From NCBI GenBank assembly GCA_017525875.1, contig JAFXSG010000051.1, forward strand, positions 1 to 63,978: DNA of 63,978 bases, given 5' to 3'. The DNA comes from Clostridia bacterium (GTDB lineage: Bacteria > Bacillota > Clostridia > Christensenellales > CAG-138). A model generated the notes under the pieces. The model worked only from the letters and a program-made list of their open reading frames with translations, searched no databases and was not told the DNA's origin. The position numbers and the translations under genes were made by a program. Position 1 is the stretch's first letter. Each line of letters starts with the position of its first letter. Below are positions 3,054 to 9,746 of the stretch, piece by piece.

Positions 3054-3737
3054 TCACAGCGTTTCGAAGGATTCAAACAGGAAGTGCATCCTGTCTATCC
3101 GTTTATCGGTGTGCCAGTGTCCGCAGTACCAGGCCGAATAATCCAGGCTTTCTTCGATCGAATCAAGCCAGCGCTCGGTACTGTCATCAATAGTGCTCTG
3201 ATCGACGCAGGAAAGGAACATCTCTCGCGGCTCGTACTTATACGGGCATGTGTGCGAAAGAATAACGTCGATCTTGTGAGTGCGGAGCTGCTCTTCGACA
3301 AAGTGCTTGATTTCATCGGACGGCTGCTCATCCTCCCACCAGCCTAAACCGCGGGCGAGCCGTATGGGCTTATCTACGCTGTACGCTCCGCCGATCACAA
3401 TGCAGCGCCGGCCTTCAAGCAGGAAGATCTCTCCGTCTTTGGCAAAGAGCAGGTTAGGGAAATCCTCCTGCACCCACACTTTGCCGCCGTTCCAATCCCT
3501 GAGCGTATATCCGGGCACGGTCCACGGGCGCATTTCGTGATTGCCGTGTATGCAGAGCACCTTCGGGCCGCATATATCGAGCATAGCCTTGACGGCATCG
3601 TCCCTCTGCCCGCCGAAAAAGTTCACACCGACGTCGCCGAGAATAACGATGACATCATCCCGGCAGGGCTTGATTCGCCTGCAGAAGTTCACTATTCGCC
3701 ACGGGTCGCCGTGTATGTCGCCTGTTAGATAAATCAT
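3054..3737 (-). CDS. calcineurin-like metallophosphoesterase
   Basis: A 227-residue protein that opens with MIYLTGDIHGD, the metal-binding GDxHG motif at residues 6-10. GDVG (around residue 33) and CIHGNHE (around residue 57) follow, and C-terminal histidine motifs (LSHTCPY and CGHWHTDK) complete the dinuclear metal site. All five metallophosphoesterase blocks are present, so it should be an active phosphodiesterase or phosphatase; the substrate is unknown. Its start overlaps the stop of the upstream DUF2800/DUF3846 chimera by four bases (ATGA), implying translational coupling. Similar enzymes are common in phage and conjugative elements of gut Clostridia. Confidence 0.88.
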   Translation of the reverse strand: MIYLTGDIHGDPWRIVNFCRRIKPCRDDVIVILGDVGVNFFGGQRDDAVKAMLDICGPKVLCIHGNHEMRPWTVPGYTLRDWNGGKVWVQEDFPNLLFAKDGEIFLLEGRRCIVIGGAYSVDKPIRLARGLGWWEDEQPSDEIKHFVEEQLRTHKIDVILSHTCPYKYEPREMFLSCVDQSTIDDSTERWLDSIEESLDYSAWYCGHWHTDKRIDRMHFLFESFETL

Positions 3738-4327
3738 GGCCTTATTATACCATAATCCTCAGGCGTCTGATAAAGCTTTTTGTAGCGTTCGAGCTGCACG
3801 TCAGTCAGGCTCGCGAACTCCTCCTGGGCAAGGCCGACAACAAGGAAGGTTCCGGCAATGATATCGTAGATGCGGCCTATGCTGTCGCGAAGCGCGCGGT
3901 TAGGTTCCAGGCCTTCGAGTTTGCCTTCTTCGTTGCATACTATGGCAACGTTATCCGAAACGATCAGGCAGTCGCCCGTGCCGAAGCCCTCGGGTACATA
4001 GCAGGAATAATCGAGCTTCTGCTCAATCAAAACCTGCGGATCCGGGCAGCTCTTTTTTGCTTCGGCGATAGCTTCAAGCACGAAGCTGACATACCCGTCA
4101 GTGCAGGTGTCCATCTCATCCGAATCGTAGCGGCTTACGGGCTTTCTTGACCGCATCTTCAGCGCTCGCTTGAGCTTGTGCTCGCAAAGCGCGTGTGCAG
4201 CTGTGCCTTCTGCTGCCGCTTCAGTCTCCCGGTCTTCGAACTCCTGCTCCAGTCTTGCAGACGGATTGCAGTGCAACCATCTGTGCGATGAAGATGCCGA
4301 CAGCAGCGCGTGTGTAGCAGGAGGCAT
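3734..4327 (-). CDS. chimeric DUF2800 / DUF3846 protein, probable deletion fusion
   Basis: Residues 1 to about 126 (MPPATHALLSASSSHRWLHC to GTGDCLIVSDN) look like the N-terminus of DUF2800 phage/plasmid proteins, a family related to Cas4/RecB-like nucleases. The expected continuation with the nuclease-like core is missing. From about residue 127 the sequence changes to VAIVCNEEGKLEGLEPNRAL ... IYDIIAGTFLVVGL, which resembles DUF3846 proteins, normally a separate gene in the same kind of element. The simplest reading is an in-frame deletion that joined two genes. The SD-like GGAG before the ATG is good and the frame is intact, so it may still be expressed. Family names come from memory of the motifs. 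Confidence 0.65.
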   Translation of the reverse strand: MPPATHALLSASSSHRWLHCNPSARLEQEFEDRETEAAAEGTAAHALCEHKLKRALKMRSRKPVSRYDSDEMDTCTDGYVSFVLEAIAEAKKSCPDPQVLIEQKLDYSCYVPEGFGTGDCLIVSDNVAIVCNEEGKLEGLEPNRALRDSIGRIYDIIAGTFLVVGLAQEEFASLTDVQLERYKKLYQTPEDYGIIRP

Positions 4328-5018: not shown

Positions 5019-5104
5019 ATCCAATTGAAGAATATATGTACTGCTGCGGAGCGGATCCACAGCAAACTGCCGGCCGCGGGCAAGCGCGGCGCCAAGGAGG
5101 AAAT

Positions 5105-6271
5105 ATGAAAAAACGTGCAATAATCATCGTTCTGGACAGCGTCGGCATCGGCGAAATGCCCGACGCCGCAGAGTTTGGCGACGAAGGCTCCCACACCCTC
5201 GGCAATACCTATGCACAGCGCCCGATGGAGATCCCGAACATGCTTGCGCTTGGCCTCGGAAATATCGAGAACTCAAAACTCCCGCCCGTTGAGGACCCGC
5301 GCGGCGCATACGGCCGGTCAGCCGAACGCACCAAGGCGAAGGACACCACGAGCGGGCATTGGGAGATGGCGGGCCTGCCTATGGACGTTCCTTTCCGCAC
5401 TTATCCGGACGGTTTCCCCAGGAGCGTCATGAACGAGTTCGAAATGAAGATCCACCGCGGCACTCTCGGCAACTGCGTCGCGTCCGGCACGGTCATCATC
5501 AACGAACTGGGCGATGAGCACGTCCGCACGGGCAAGCCGATCGTCTACACCTCTGCGGACAGCGTTTTCCAGATTGCCGCTCACGAAGAGGTCATCCCGC
5601 TCGACAAGCTCTATAAAATGTGCGAGACAGCAAGGGAAATGCTCGTTGGCGACAACCTCGTCGGCAGGGTCATCGCGCGCCCGTTCATCGGTTCGGACGG
5701 TCACTATACCAGGACGGAGAACCGCCGCGACTTCGCGCTCGAGCCCATCGGCGAGACCATCCTCGACCGGCTCTCCGGCAAAGGCATGGACGTCGTCGGC
5801 ATCGGCAAGATCGAGGACATCTTCGCTCATAGGGGCGTCACGACCGTCGACCACACCAAGAACAATCCTGACGGCATCGAGGCGACGATCCGTTTCCTCA
5901 AAGAGGGCAGGGGCGACTTCATCTTCACGAACCTTGTGGATACCGACATGCTCTACGGTCACCGCAACGACGTCGAGGGCTACGCCGGTGCTCTCGAGTA
6001 CTTCGATAAAAAACTGCCGGAGATCATGGATGCGATGAGCGATGACGATCTTTTGATCGTGACTGCAGACCACGGCTGCGATCCCACGACCCCGAGCACG
6101 GATCACAGCCGCGAATACATCCCGATCCTCGTATGGGGCAGGCACGTGAAGAGCTGCGATCTCGGCACGCTTTCCACTTTCGCGGATCTCGGCGCTACAG
6201 TCGTGGACTATCTCACCGGCGAGGACTTCGGCGTCGGTACTTCGTTCCTCGGGAAGGTCATCAAGGACTGA
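5105..6271 (+). CDS. deoB: phosphopentomutase
   Basis: Interconverts ribose-5-phosphate with ribose-1-phosphate (and the deoxy forms) in nucleoside salvage, in the cytoplasm. The 388-residue product has the family signature at the N-terminus ([16 protein letters not shown], with the metal-binding aspartate at residue 11), the phosphorylated-threonine motif [10 protein letters not shown] near residue 80, and the C-terminal metal site [19 protein letters not shown]. Length matches the family. The start at 5105 was preferred over an upstream in-frame ATG because it is preceded by AAGGAGG and matches the conserved N-terminus. It has its own promoter and is followed by a stem-loop. In Clostridia deoB commonly precedes dacF, as here. 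Confidence 0.97.
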
Positions 6272-6363: not shown

Positions 6364-7569
6364 ATGCTGAAAAACATCGGAAAGAATTTGATAAAATCAG
6401 CGGCGTGCCTGCTTGCCGCCGCGATGCTTTCGTGCTTTTCGCTTCCAAACCATGCCAAAGCCGATACGGCTCCCGTCGATACCAGCAGCGCCAAAGCTTG
6501 CCTGCTTATCGAGGCAAAGACGGGCAAACCGCTCTTCGAATACAACTCGGGCGAAGAGCTCCCGGCAGCGGGGCTCAGCCGCCTTGCCGCGCTTCTCGTG
6601 ATCTGCGAAGCGTTCGACAGGGGGGAGATGGACAAAGCAGCACTCGTGACCGTCAGCGACCGGGCTTCACGGATCGGCGGGACGACCGCGTTCCTCCGCG
6701 CAAACGAGCAGATCGACGCGGAAAGCCTGCTGCTCGCGGCTGCGATGATCAACGCGGGCGACGCGACCGCTGCCCTCGCGAGCGCCGTCTGCGGCAGTGA
6801 GACCGCCGCTGTGATGCGCATCAACGAGCGGATGGCGGAGCTCGGCATACCGGCTTCGTTTGCCGACGTCTGCGGGGAGGACCGCCTGTTCACTGCCCGG
6901 GAGCTCGCAAGGCTCGGCTCCGCGCTGATCACGAGCGGCACGTATAATACGTACGGCACGAAGTATTATGAGAAGATCCTGCATTCGGGCGCGGGCGAAA
7001 CAGAGCTTGCGAACCCGAACAAGCTGCTGCGCCAATACTCAGGCTGTCTCGGCGTCGGTACAGGTTCCTCACAGCAGGCGGGCTACTGCGGCGTGTTCGC
7101 GGCGAAACGCGGTGAGACCGTGTTCGTTGCCGTCGTGCTGGGCGCGGATACCGGCGCGGAGCGCTTCCGGATCGGCGCCGCATTGCTCGACTGCGGTTTT
7201 TCCGCGTTCAGGAGCGTGAGGGTCGGAACTGCGGGGGAGTCCTTCGGCACGCTGCCCGTGACCGGTTCACTGGTCAGCGAGATCGAAGCCGTTTCAAATG
7301 ATGACACAGTCCTTCTGCTGAAAACGAACGGGAGCGGGTACGTGACCGGGACGGAGTTCCCGCCCGTGCTCGAAGCCCCGGTAGAAAAAGGCGATACCGT
7401 GGGCAAACTGATAATACGGGATACGGATGGAGAAGTGCTTGCGGAAACAGAGCTCGTTGCCGCGGACAGTGCTCCGAAAGCCGGATTCATAGACTGCTTC
7501 GCGTTCGTTCTCCGCGCTTTTACCGGCAGTGAATACCGCCTGAACGGCGGCGTTGCGGAACAGACGTAA
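6364..7569 (+). CDS. DacF-like D-Ala-D-Ala carboxypeptidase homologue, catalytic residues lost
   Basis: A 401-residue exported protein: signal peptide at residues 1-33, then a peptidase S11 (penicillin-binding protein 5/DacF) fold that aligns along its whole length with DacF, including the C-terminal domain ending in PKAGFIDCF. All three active-site motifs are altered: the SxxK position reads GLSR (70-73), SxN reads NAG (130-132) and KTG reads GTG (232-234). The protein cannot work by the normal serine mechanism. The reading frame is uninterrupted, codon use is normal and the locus order (deoB, dacF, M50 protease, scpA, scpB) is the usual clostridial one, so it seems to be the dacF orthologue retained as a non-enzyme. 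It might bind peptidoglycan or act as a scaffold at the spore envelope (inference). Confidence 0.85.
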   Translation: MLKNIGKNLIKSAACLLAAAMLSCFSLPNHAKADTAPVDTSSAKACLLIEAKTGKPLFEYNSGEELPAAGLSRLAALLVICEAFDRGEMDKAALVTVSDRASRIGGTTAFLRANEQIDAESLLLAAAMINAGDATAALASAVCGSETAAVMRINERMAELGIPASFADVCGEDRLFTARELARLGSALITSGTYNTYGTKYYEKILHSGAGETELANPNKLLRQYSGCLGVGTGSSQQAGYCGVFAAKRGETVFVAVVLGADTGAERFRIGAALLDCGFSAFRSVRVGTAGESFGTLPVTGSLVSEIEAVSNDDTVLLLKTNGSGYVTGTEFPPVLEAPVEKGDTVGKLIIRDTDGEVLAETELVAADSAPKAGFIDCFAFVLRAFTGSEYRLNGGVAEQT

Positions 7570-7665: not shown

Positions 7666-8328
7666 TTGGAAAGTTTTGTCGATTACCTGATCTCCAGGCT
7701 TTATATCCTCCCCGCCGTGATCATCGGCCTCAGCTTTCATGAGTGGGGCCACGCATTTGCGGCGTATAAAATGGGGGACCCGACCGCGCGCAATTTGGGC
7801 AGGCTGACGCTGAACCCGCTAAAGCATATCGATCCGATAGGCTTTCTTATGATGCTCGTCTTCGGGTTCGGCTGGGCAAAGCCGGTGCCTGTAAATCCCC
7901 ATAATTACCGAAACTACAGGATCGGTGAGATCGTCGTTTCCCTTGCGGGCGTAACGATGAATCTCATCCTGGCGGTCATCAGCGCGATCATCCTCGCCGC
8001 GTACTACAAGTATGCGGGCGTGGAATTCATCGCGAGCACGGCCGGCACCCGCTTGAACGTGATCATCTATTATTTCATCATGCTCAACCTTTGCCTGCTG
8101 GTCTTTAACCTCATACCGATCTATCCGCTCGACGGCTTCCACGTCGCGGAGGTATTGCTCGCAAAGCCCCTCGGGCCGAAGGTCTTCCTTTTCCTGCGCA
8201 ATTACGGCCAGTACATCCTGATCGGCATACTGCTCCTCGGCAGGAGCGGCTTTTCACCGGTCGGATACATCGCCGGGAAGCTGTATTCCGTCGTGACCTC
8301 ATTCGCGTTCTGGGTCTTCGGGGTGTAA
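7666..8328 (+). CDS. site-2-protease-type intramembrane metalloprotease (M50)
   Basis: A 220-residue polytopic membrane protein that belongs to the compact YwhC/Rip-like branch of peptidase family M50. The zinc-binding motif HEWGH sits in the first membrane helix (residues 25-29), and the third zinc ligand lies in NLIPIYPLDGFH. Several hydrophobic segments flank these motifs. The start is TTG, preceded by AAAGGAG. In Clostridia this gene is commonly placed just upstream of scpA-scpB, as here, but the substrate of this branch is not known. Alternative calls are unlikely given the intact motif pair. Confidence 0.92.
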   Translation: MESFVDYLISRLYILPAVIIGLSFHEWGHAFAAYKMGDPTARNLGRLTLNPLKHIDPIGFLMMLVFGFGWAKPVPVNPHNYRNYRIGEIVVSLAGVTMNLILAVISAIILAAYYKYAGVEFIASTAGTRLNVIIYYFIMLNLCLLVFNLIPIYPLDGFHVAEVLLAKPLGPKVFLFLRNYGQYILIGILLLGRSGFSPVGYIAGKLYSVVTSFAFWVFGV

Positions 8329-8362: not shown

Positions 8363-9127
8363 ATGGATTACCGCGTTCATATAAAGCAGTTCGACGGGCC
8401 GCTTGACCTGCTGCTTCACCTTGTTGAAAAATCGGAGCTTGATATCCGGGATATCTTCGTTTCCGAGATAACCTCGGAGTTCCTTGAATACATGAAACAG
8501 CTCGACCAGCTCGATGCGGACGCCGCAAGCGAGTTCCTGACCGTCGCCGCAACGCTCGTCTACGCCAAATCCCGTTCGCTCTTCCCGCCGGAACCAAAGG
8601 AGGATGGCGAGGAAGAGGAGGATCCGGCGGAAATGCTCGTCCGCAGGCTGCGCGAATACAAGGCCTTCAAGGAAGCGTCCGAAGCGATGCGTCAGCTCGC
8701 CAGGACCGCCTCCGAAATGCGCACCAAGCAACCGGAGGAGTTCCCGCTCCCGCCGAAGGAGATCATCCTTCGCGATACGACCGTCGAACGCCTCTTCGAG
8801 GCCATGCTTGCCGCACTGAACCGCGTTCCGGAAGCGGAAACGGTCAAGACCGTCCACTCGGTCAAAAAGGATACTTACACGATCCGTTCCTGTTCGCGCA
8901 AGATAAGGGACCGCCTGCGGCAGGACCGCGGCAAAACGACCTTCACAAACCTTGTGAACGGTGCGGGCAGGATGGAGATCATCGTCACCTTCATGTCCAT
9001 TCTGGAGATGATCACCGGCGGAGAGATACGCGTGGAACAGAAGAAATACTGCGGCGAGATCTTCATAATCGAGCAGAAGCTTTTAAAGAACGACGAAAAC
9101 ATTAACTATACGGATGAGCAGGACTAA
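8363..9127 (+). CDS. scpA: segregation and condensation protein A (kleisin)
   Basis: Kleisin subunit that bridges SMC heads in the bacterial condensin complex and acts in chromosome segregation. The 254-residue protein opens with the highly conserved YRVHIKQFDGPLDLLLHLVE block, followed by the helical N-domain (ELDIRDIFVSEITSEFLEYM), an acidic linker (EDGEEEEDPAE) and the winged-helix C-terminal domain. AAAGGAG precedes the ATG. Its 3' end overlaps the start of scpB by 14 bases, consistent with stoichiometric coupling. Length matches the family. Confidence 0.97.
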   Translation: MDYRVHIKQFDGPLDLLLHLVEKSELDIRDIFVSEITSEFLEYMKQLDQLDADAASEFLTVAATLVYAKSRSLFPPEPKEDGEEEEDPAEMLVRRLREYKAFKEASEAMRQLARTASEMRTKQPEEFPLPPKEIILRDTTVERLFEAMLAALNRVPEAETVKTVHSVKKDTYTIRSCSRKIRDRLRQDRGKTTFTNLVNGAGRMEIIVTFMSILEMITGGEIRVEQKKYCGEIFIIEQKLLKNDENINYTDEQD

Positions 9128-9746
9128 TATGGAAAATCAGGACGACATCACGAACAGCGGCCCCGCGGAGAAAGGGGCATCCAAAGAGGAATCCTTTTCA
9201 AACGAGGAATTTTTCGGCGCGGTAGAAAGCCTGCTCTTCGTCTCCGGAGAGCCGATCGGCTTTGCCGAGCTCGTACGCGTGTTCGATATCCCGGAGCAGA
9301 AGGTCATCGCCCTGCTCTCTGAGATGGAGTGGCAGATGCGCGGAGCGGGCAGGGGAGTGCTTCCGTTCATCACGGGCTCCACGGTCCAGCTCGTAACGAA
9401 CCCGCGTTATAACAGCACGGTCGTATCGCTGCTTTCGCCGCCCGAGGAGCGCACCATGAGCGATTCCATGATGGAGACCCTCTCCGTTATCGCATACCGT
9501 CAGCCCGTCACAAGGGCGGATATCGAAGCCGTGCGCGGCGTCCGGTGCGAGTACTCCGTAACGCAGCTGCTCAAACAGGGCCTTATCTGCGAACTCGGCA
9601 GAAAGGACTGCATCGGAAGGCCGATGCTGTTCGGAACGACGGATAAATTCCTCAGAAAGTTCGGCCTGCATTCCCTTGAGGACCTTCCGCCGATGCCCGA
9701 TCCGGACGACGGCGAAGGCTCGGACGGCCAGATCGGCGTCGTTTGA
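9114..9746 (+). CDS. scpB: segregation and condensation protein B
   Basis: Partner of ScpA in the SMC condensin. The 210-residue protein has an acidic N-terminal extension, then two winged-helix domains: FFGAVESLLFVSGEPIGFAELV and the conserved block DSMMETLSVIAYRQPVTRADIEAVRGV, ending with the typical FGTTDKFLRKFGLHSLEDLPP. The ATG at 9114 overlaps scpA; a second in-frame ATG at 9129 is an equally possible start. Both lie within the scpA 3' end or just beyond it, so translation is likely coupled. Confidence 0.97.
   Translation: MSRTNMENQDDITNSGPAEKGASKEESFSNEEFFGAVESLLFVSGEPIGFAELVRVFDIPEQKVIALLSEMEWQMRGAGRGVLPFITGSTVQLVTNPRYNSTVVSLLSPPEERTMSDSMMETLSVIAYRQPVTRADIEAVRGVRCEYSVTQLLKQGLICELGRKDCIGRPMLFGTTDKFLRKFGLHSLEDLPPMPDPDDGEGSDGQIGVV

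Follow-up and report, generated by a model that had tools for sequence, protein, structure and literature searches.

The gene at positions 6364 to 7569 of the window (the whole stretch of DNA analysed, 63,978 nucleotides) is the dacF orthologue of its lineage, by tree and by locus, and its product has lost the catalytic motifs of an S11 peptidase. We are highly confident that it encodes a conserved pseudoenzyme under selection. The explanation as a whole, ie that a dacF orthologue has become a selected pseudoenzyme with a non-catalytic job in spore formation, is likely to be right, and the best reading of the gene is an old, selected, sporulation-linked pseudo-carboxypeptidase for which a ligand or partner can be proposed. 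For bacteria known chiefly through metagenomes, this suggests a contribution to spore-wall assembly that involves no enzyme activity. The gene, here called pseudo-dacF, and its neighbours are laid out as follows.

5036..6271, + strand: deoB, upstream neighbour (Pfam Metalloenzyme, which fits DeoB)
6364..7569, + strand: pseudo-dacF, an intact 401-aa S11/PBP5_C protein without catalytic residues
6364..6465, + strand: N-terminal export signal, approximate, placed by eye (helix at residues 5-24 in the model)
6571..6582, + strand: SxxK position, reading GLSR (residues 70-73), with Gly70 in the nucleophile's place
6751..6759, + strand: SxN position, reading NAG (residues 130-132)
7057..7065, + strand: KTG position, reading GTG (residues 232-234)
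7207..7470, + strand: PBP5_C domain (residues 282-369, Pfam)
7486..7524, + strand: C-terminal helix (residues 375-387), from the model, where confidence falls to about 65
7666..8328, + strand: M50 peptidase, downstream neighbour (Pfam)
8363..9127, + strand: scpA (Pfam)
9114..9746, + strand: scpB (Pfam)

The open reading frame (6364-7569, + strand) begins with ATG, ends with TAA and encodes 401 amino acids. PF00768 (Peptidase_S11) matches the protein at residues 37-263 with 118.6 bits (cut-off 27.6) and PBP5_C at residues 282-369 with 35.2 bits (cut-off 21.2). In a phmmer alignment with P. aeruginosa PBP5 (4k91), GLSR stands opposite SxxK, NAG opposite SxN and GTG opposite KTG. Frame, Pfam matches and alignment thus confirm the initial annotation, in which all three motifs had been described as replaced within an intact frame; none of the three that mark an active S11 enzyme is present. 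Both PF00768 and PBP5_C match all 41 members of set A3, and S11 proteins recognised by family models (41/41 for PF00768) can be without the residues of the enzyme. A structure model of pseudo-DacF, made with 14 sequences, has a pLDDT of 83.5 and the S11 fold. Its closest PDB entries are DacA, PBP5 and PBP6, and comparison with PBP5 4k91 gave an E value of 7.7e-27 and TM-scores of 0.56/0.65. The hydrophobic N-terminus, judged by eye, predicts that the protein is exported. DacF and PBP5 proteins have a membrane-anchoring helix at the position of the C-terminal helix, and by analogy residues 375-387 of pseudo-DacF may form a membrane anchor.

The orthologue is present in all 11 genomes of the same genus, at 45-62% identity. 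The nucleophile is changed from Ser to Gly in every one of them and NAG is likewise found in 11/11, while the lysine of SxxK is Arg in ten and is kept in one (L014), and the KTG site reads GTG in seven and ATG in four. Since Gly at the nucleophile and NAG recur across the genus (11/11), a sequencing slip is ruled out. The relatives include Christensenellaceae bacterium Phil7, Christensenella sp. UBA1214 and metagenome-assembled genomes from goat, sheep and buffalo gut, among others, and their names put the gene in the company of Christensenella. The family scan covered 103 genomes in 26 genera, of which 81 gave a match above 170 bits; with this single query the gap was narrow, the lowest such match being 171.7 bits (a partial match) and the best paralogue 157.8. 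A profile search placed the 32 family rows used in the tree at 421-510 bits and the paralogues at 186 or less. Sixty-nine of the 81 loci were read, L092 being a duplicate of L046 and counted once. The nucleophile is Gly in all 69, encoded by GGG (43), GGA (16), GGC (7) or GGT (3), ie the residue has been retained while its codon varies. The SxxK lysine position holds R in 38, K in 29, and S and F in one each; the SxN asparagine position holds G in 68 and S in one; and the KTG lysine position holds A in 27, M in 15, G in 10, L in nine, F in four, S in three and I in one. By comparison, Glu115, Asp133, His207, Thr233, Ser235 and Tyr241 are each found in 69/69. In one further genome (G069) the gene is split by a frameshift in the assembly. 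Two other S11 genes of the window's own genome have intact motifs, and among the active S11 paralogues of the genus and of seven further family loci SxxK, SxN and KTG are intact in 28 of 28 rows (26 distinct genes).

Intact orthologues in close relatives had been named beforehand as the finding that would reduce the gene to a pseudogene of one strain. There are none among the genus genomes and family loci read, where the serine is gone from 11/11 genomes and 69/69 loci, and they appear in more distant families. The order scan took in 41 loci from 25 of the 32 other families (f5, f9, f10, f16, f18, f20 and f30 were left out; the codes f1-f33 are arbitrary), of which 29 loci in 17 families are intact and 12 in eight families are degraded. 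The serine is kept and the KTG lysine lost in f2 (QTG), at both f21 loci (ATG) and at one f15 locus (ATG). Both are lost in f7, at the other f15 locus, in f22, which has Thr at the nucleophile, in f25, which has Asn there and a still basic RTG at the KTG site, and at two loci each of f27 and f31. All 12 retain the SxN asparagine; f31 has lost the SxN serine. Four loci (L151, L158, L159 and L176) carry intermediate forms of DacF, in which the serine and SxN are unchanged and KTG has become ATG or QTG.

A maximum-likelihood tree was built with the motif columns removed. On it all 44 degraded rows, to which the window's family contributes 32, form one clade of nine families with support of 100/95, and the window's family itself has 100/100. 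The most parsimonious history has a single change of the KTG lysine, a single change of the asparagine (in the window's family only) and three changes of the serine, or five serine losses if regain is disallowed. A single serine loss, with all serine-less rows held together, was rejected (p-AU 0.0019, for a group chosen after the tree was seen). With one loss of the KTG lysine and several losses of the serine on the tree, the lysine was most likely the first to go, and the order of losses reads as KTG lysine, then serine, then SxN asparagine. In this respect the initial annotation has to be corrected: it had the three motifs lost together, and the relatives show losses in steps. Such relatives would document, within a single orthologous gene, how an enzyme became a pseudoenzyme in nature and in which order its residues went. 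Of the loci found in a scan of 196 genomes of the class, the best 30 were read; other orders account for 26 of these, and all 26, examined by their motifs, are intact. No degraded DacF was thus seen outside the order in this set.

Pseudo-dacF occupies the same locus as intact DacF and falls in one tree with it. The gene order deoB-dacF-M50-scpA-scpB, as first read from the letters, was borne out by Pfam matches in the window to Metalloenzyme (fitting DeoB), M50, ScpA and ScpB. A match to M50 was found in the available flank of 28 of 41 family loci. In other families at least one of deoB, M50, scpA and scpB lies in the available flank at 25 of 41 loci (9 of the 12 degraded), the remaining 16 having a short flank or no such gene seen. 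A lysA-like gene stands between the S11 gene and M50 in several loci of other families, by eye, and was checked with Pfam in L174; in L141 a purine nucleoside phosphorylase gene (punA) stands between deoB and the S11 gene. The order in B. subtilis is drm-pupG-dacF ... lysA ... scpA-scpB ... dacB, which the deoB-S11-M50-scpA-scpB locus echoes. At seven family loci (L053, L054, L056, L060, L066, L078 and L092) the contig continues beyond scpB with an intact S11 gene. None of the reading frames listed just upstream of deoB in the window is a spore gene. A separate feature of the window is a 197-aa reading frame at 3734-4327 (- strand) that matches the first third of DUF2800 and, after it, the end portion of DUF3846, which looks like two genes joined by a deletion.

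Elsewhere, spore genes lie near the locus. By phmmer, spoIVB and/or spo0A was found upstream at 18 of 29 family loci and 23 of 35 loci of other families, each having at least 3.5 kb of upstream sequence. Pfam identified Spo0A_C in six loci, with the SpoIVB peptidase in three of those, and SpoIIM in L152. In f31 a degraded dacF sits in the neighbourhood spoIVB-spo0A-[membrane protein]-dacF-secG-RNase R-like (L172:1333-7999, + strand), where spoIVB, spo0A and secG were checked with Pfam and RNase R was read by eye; deoB, M50 and scpA were not seen within 9.5 kb. L058 carries tandem Spo0A_C proteins (914-1768 and 1729-2589, + strand) upstream of deoB and pseudo-dacF, and the second, in which no receiver domain is recognised, may be a receiver-less Spo0A paralogue.

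The presence of the gene was compared with that of sporulation markers by Fisher tests, which used presence sets compiled by hand and are uncorrected for phylogeny. SpoIVA was found in 77 of the 103 family genomes. SpoIIID was searched for in 20 chosen genomes, and made G020 and G051 marker-positive; its score in G020 was 103.3 bits, under the curated 111.5, as were those in G077 and G045, which have SpoIVA, and it was absent from G031, which also has SpoIVA. Fifty family genomes have a completeness of 90% or more and a contamination of 5% or less; of these, 40 have gene and marker, none the gene only, four the marker only and six neither (p 1.3e-5). The 40 comprise 37 genomes whose gene was read and three (G070, G074 and G076) assigned by score alone. 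With SpoIVA alone the corresponding counts are 38/2/4/6 (p 3.1e-4). For SpoIVA in all 103 genomes they are 70/11/7/15 (p 1.3e-6, or 0.0016 with genus g24 counted once), the frameshifted G069 being entered as lacking the gene in a table where G042 and G046 are undecidable from their assemblies. In G016 and the 72%-complete G012, neither of which has SpoIVA or SpoIIID, deoB abuts M50, and in G083, G091 and G092 no S11 gene was found within 1.5 kb beside M50. The losses in G016, G083, g24 and G012 represent four genera, and the relatives of G083 in its own genus have gene and marker. Across the order, SpoIVA is present in 39 of 41 dacF-bearing genomes of other families, the other two being 71% and 74% complete; of 38 good order genomes, hand-picked for a weak or absent DacF match, 29 are without SpoIVA and nine have it. 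Four good family genomes (G013, G031, G032 and G080) have SpoIVA and no pseudo-dacF beside M50, so some predicted spore-formers can do without it. At the place between deoB and M50 where pseudo-dacF is expected, G032 has a DUF5640 protein whose start resembles that of a lipoprotein (L187:582-1310, + strand). In G013 genes resembling dipicolinate synthase A/B, a name read by eye, lie upstream of M50 (L189:2-1368, + strand) instead of pseudo-dacF.

In the accessible text of PMC3789822 dacF of C. difficile is controlled by sigma-G, and in that of PMC3416734 dacF is listed under both sigma-F and sigma-G in a core list. A sigma-G-like promoter, sought with two pattern variants, was found in one of 69 upstream regions, that of the window itself, with shuffled means of 1.6 and 0.6. 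The pattern is not enriched across the 69 orthologues and the match in the window is therefore treated as chance; no conserved promoter of this kind was found, none of the other 68 regions having the pattern.

The alternative that survives best is that the protein works in the envelope without catalysis and has nothing to do with sporulation; the correlation with markers would then come from their lying in one gene cluster and from a small number of losses affecting whole clades. The marker-less set is indeed small, six good family genomes with four of one genus, no forespore promoter is conserved among the 69 upstream regions, and nine of the 38 good order genomes with weak or absent DacF match still have SpoIVA. 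On the other hand the losses fall in four genera, with gene and marker together in the genus-mates of G083, the contrast between 39/41 dacF-bearing genomes with SpoIVA and 29/38 weak- or absent-DacF genomes without it extends to other families, and dacF is a forespore gene in other bacteria as far as the accessible portions of PMC3789822 and PMC3416734 go. We regard this alternative as improbable, and a role of pseudo-DacF in sporulation as probable. The link to sporulation was a guess in the initial annotation; neighbourhood and co-loss now support it.

Pseudo-dacF is under purifying selection that is looser than that on its neighbours. In 24 of the 25 closest family pairs dN/dS was 0.06-0.31, one pair being not computable; many of the pairs come from genus g19 with shared sequences, one had infinite dS and two had dS above 1.5. 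Values for deoB, M50 and scpA, where present in the same pairs, were 0.03-0.18, and that of pseudo-dacF was often about twice that of a neighbouring deoB, M50 or scpA. In the 32 family rows the columns around the former motifs are the most conserved: their mean entropy is 0.94-1.14, while the remainder of the catalytic domain has 1.84 and the C-terminal domain 2.32. The intact enzymes have the same ranking and more strongly so (0.74-0.85 against 1.41), and the conservation in the family may therefore be partly structural. That the cleft still has a binding function is better argued from the set of newly fixed residues: G70, L71, T108, E115, M128, G132, S235, Y241 and F245 are fixed in the family and differ from the usual residues of 29 intact orthologues.

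Those same residues could be taken to mean that catalysis has changed, ie that a remodelled site with new residues carries out another peptidoglycan reaction, as Glu115, Ser235 and Tyr241 never vary in the family and are not what intact orthologues usually have there. His207, however, is invariant in the intact enzymes as well and is therefore not a new residue, and the intermediates that have the serine but not the KTG lysine suggest loss, not a switch. A changed activity seems to us unlikely. Far less credible is decay as a pseudogene, in which a chance loss of catalysis has yet to be followed by a break in the open frame. The looser constraint, the outright loss in some lineages and the frameshifted copy in the G069 assembly are what it could claim. 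Against it, dN/dS is far below 1, the nucleophile position is Gly in 69/69 open frames through four different codons, and a degraded clade spanning nine families is too old for neutral survival. Neutral decay had been named at the outset as a possible sign of a pseudogene, and apart from the G069 frameshift there is little sign of it; the fixed replacements and purifying selection instead favour the non-enzymatic role for which selection was then proposed. An artefact of alignment or assembly can be dismissed: nothing was found in its favour. The 14 relatives that bear names all come from metagenome assembly, but independent assemblies agree (11/11 genus genomes and 69/69 family loci), and alignment to the solved PBP5 sets the motifs plainly.

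Returning to the selected pseudo-carboxypeptidase, it cannot form an acyl-enzyme, its nucleophile being glycine. The protein still has its S11 fold, PBP5_C domain and C-terminal helix, and it would act at the outer face of the forespore membrane during spore formation, with a non-catalytic part in the assembly of cortex or germ wall. The remodelled former active-site cleft may hold a partner protein or peptidoglycan stem peptides from cortex or germ wall; in this way pseudo-DacF might position or tune enzymes that are still active. The simplest partner would be the intact, DacB-like S11 enzyme whose gene lies downstream of scpB in several genera. We put forward binding by the cleft as a tentative mechanism. 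More speculative still is the broader idea that a spore-linked PBP fold became, through steps that living families still display, a receptor for peptidoglycan or a partner, its cleft refitted with the fixed new residues listed above. In this branch of the Christensenella-related order, and nowhere else, it would then control cortex synthesis without catalysis.

Compared to DacF, the sporulation DD-carboxypeptidase (an S11, low-molecular-weight PBP), pseudo-DacF shares deoB upstream (with punA between in L141), PBP5_C, the C-terminal helix, one tree with intact orthologues and sporulation genes nearby, but is without the nucleophile, the KTG lysine and the SxN asparagine and has several positions of the cleft region fixed to other residues. 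DacA/PBP5 and PBP6 are active enzymes with catalytic motifs. With 9a4z, 4k91 and 3it9 pseudo-DacF shares fold and domain order at 24-27% identity, the top structural match 9a4z being an integrative model and the other two crystal structures; it differs in lacking their motifs, seen here for 4k91. In the open-access literature, with subscription papers mostly outside its scope, no description was found of an inactive S11 protein at dacF, and nothing direct on inactive DD-carboxypeptidases or on DacF in this order. A survey of five serine protease families (PMC2605481) deals with inactive serine-protease homologues in prokaryotes, a class of inactive peptidase homologues to which pseudo-DacF would belong; in its accessible text S12 DD-peptidases are named, not S11. 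The midcell localisation of PBP7 in E. coli is independent of its activity, according to the accessible part of PMC11586513, although PBP7, unlike pseudo-DacF, is an active endopeptidase. A precedent for a non-catalytic protein controlling a cortex enzyme is GerS, the C. difficile lipoprotein that activates the amidase CwlD in the accessible text of PMC8496864; the likeness is one of role, and no homology is claimed.
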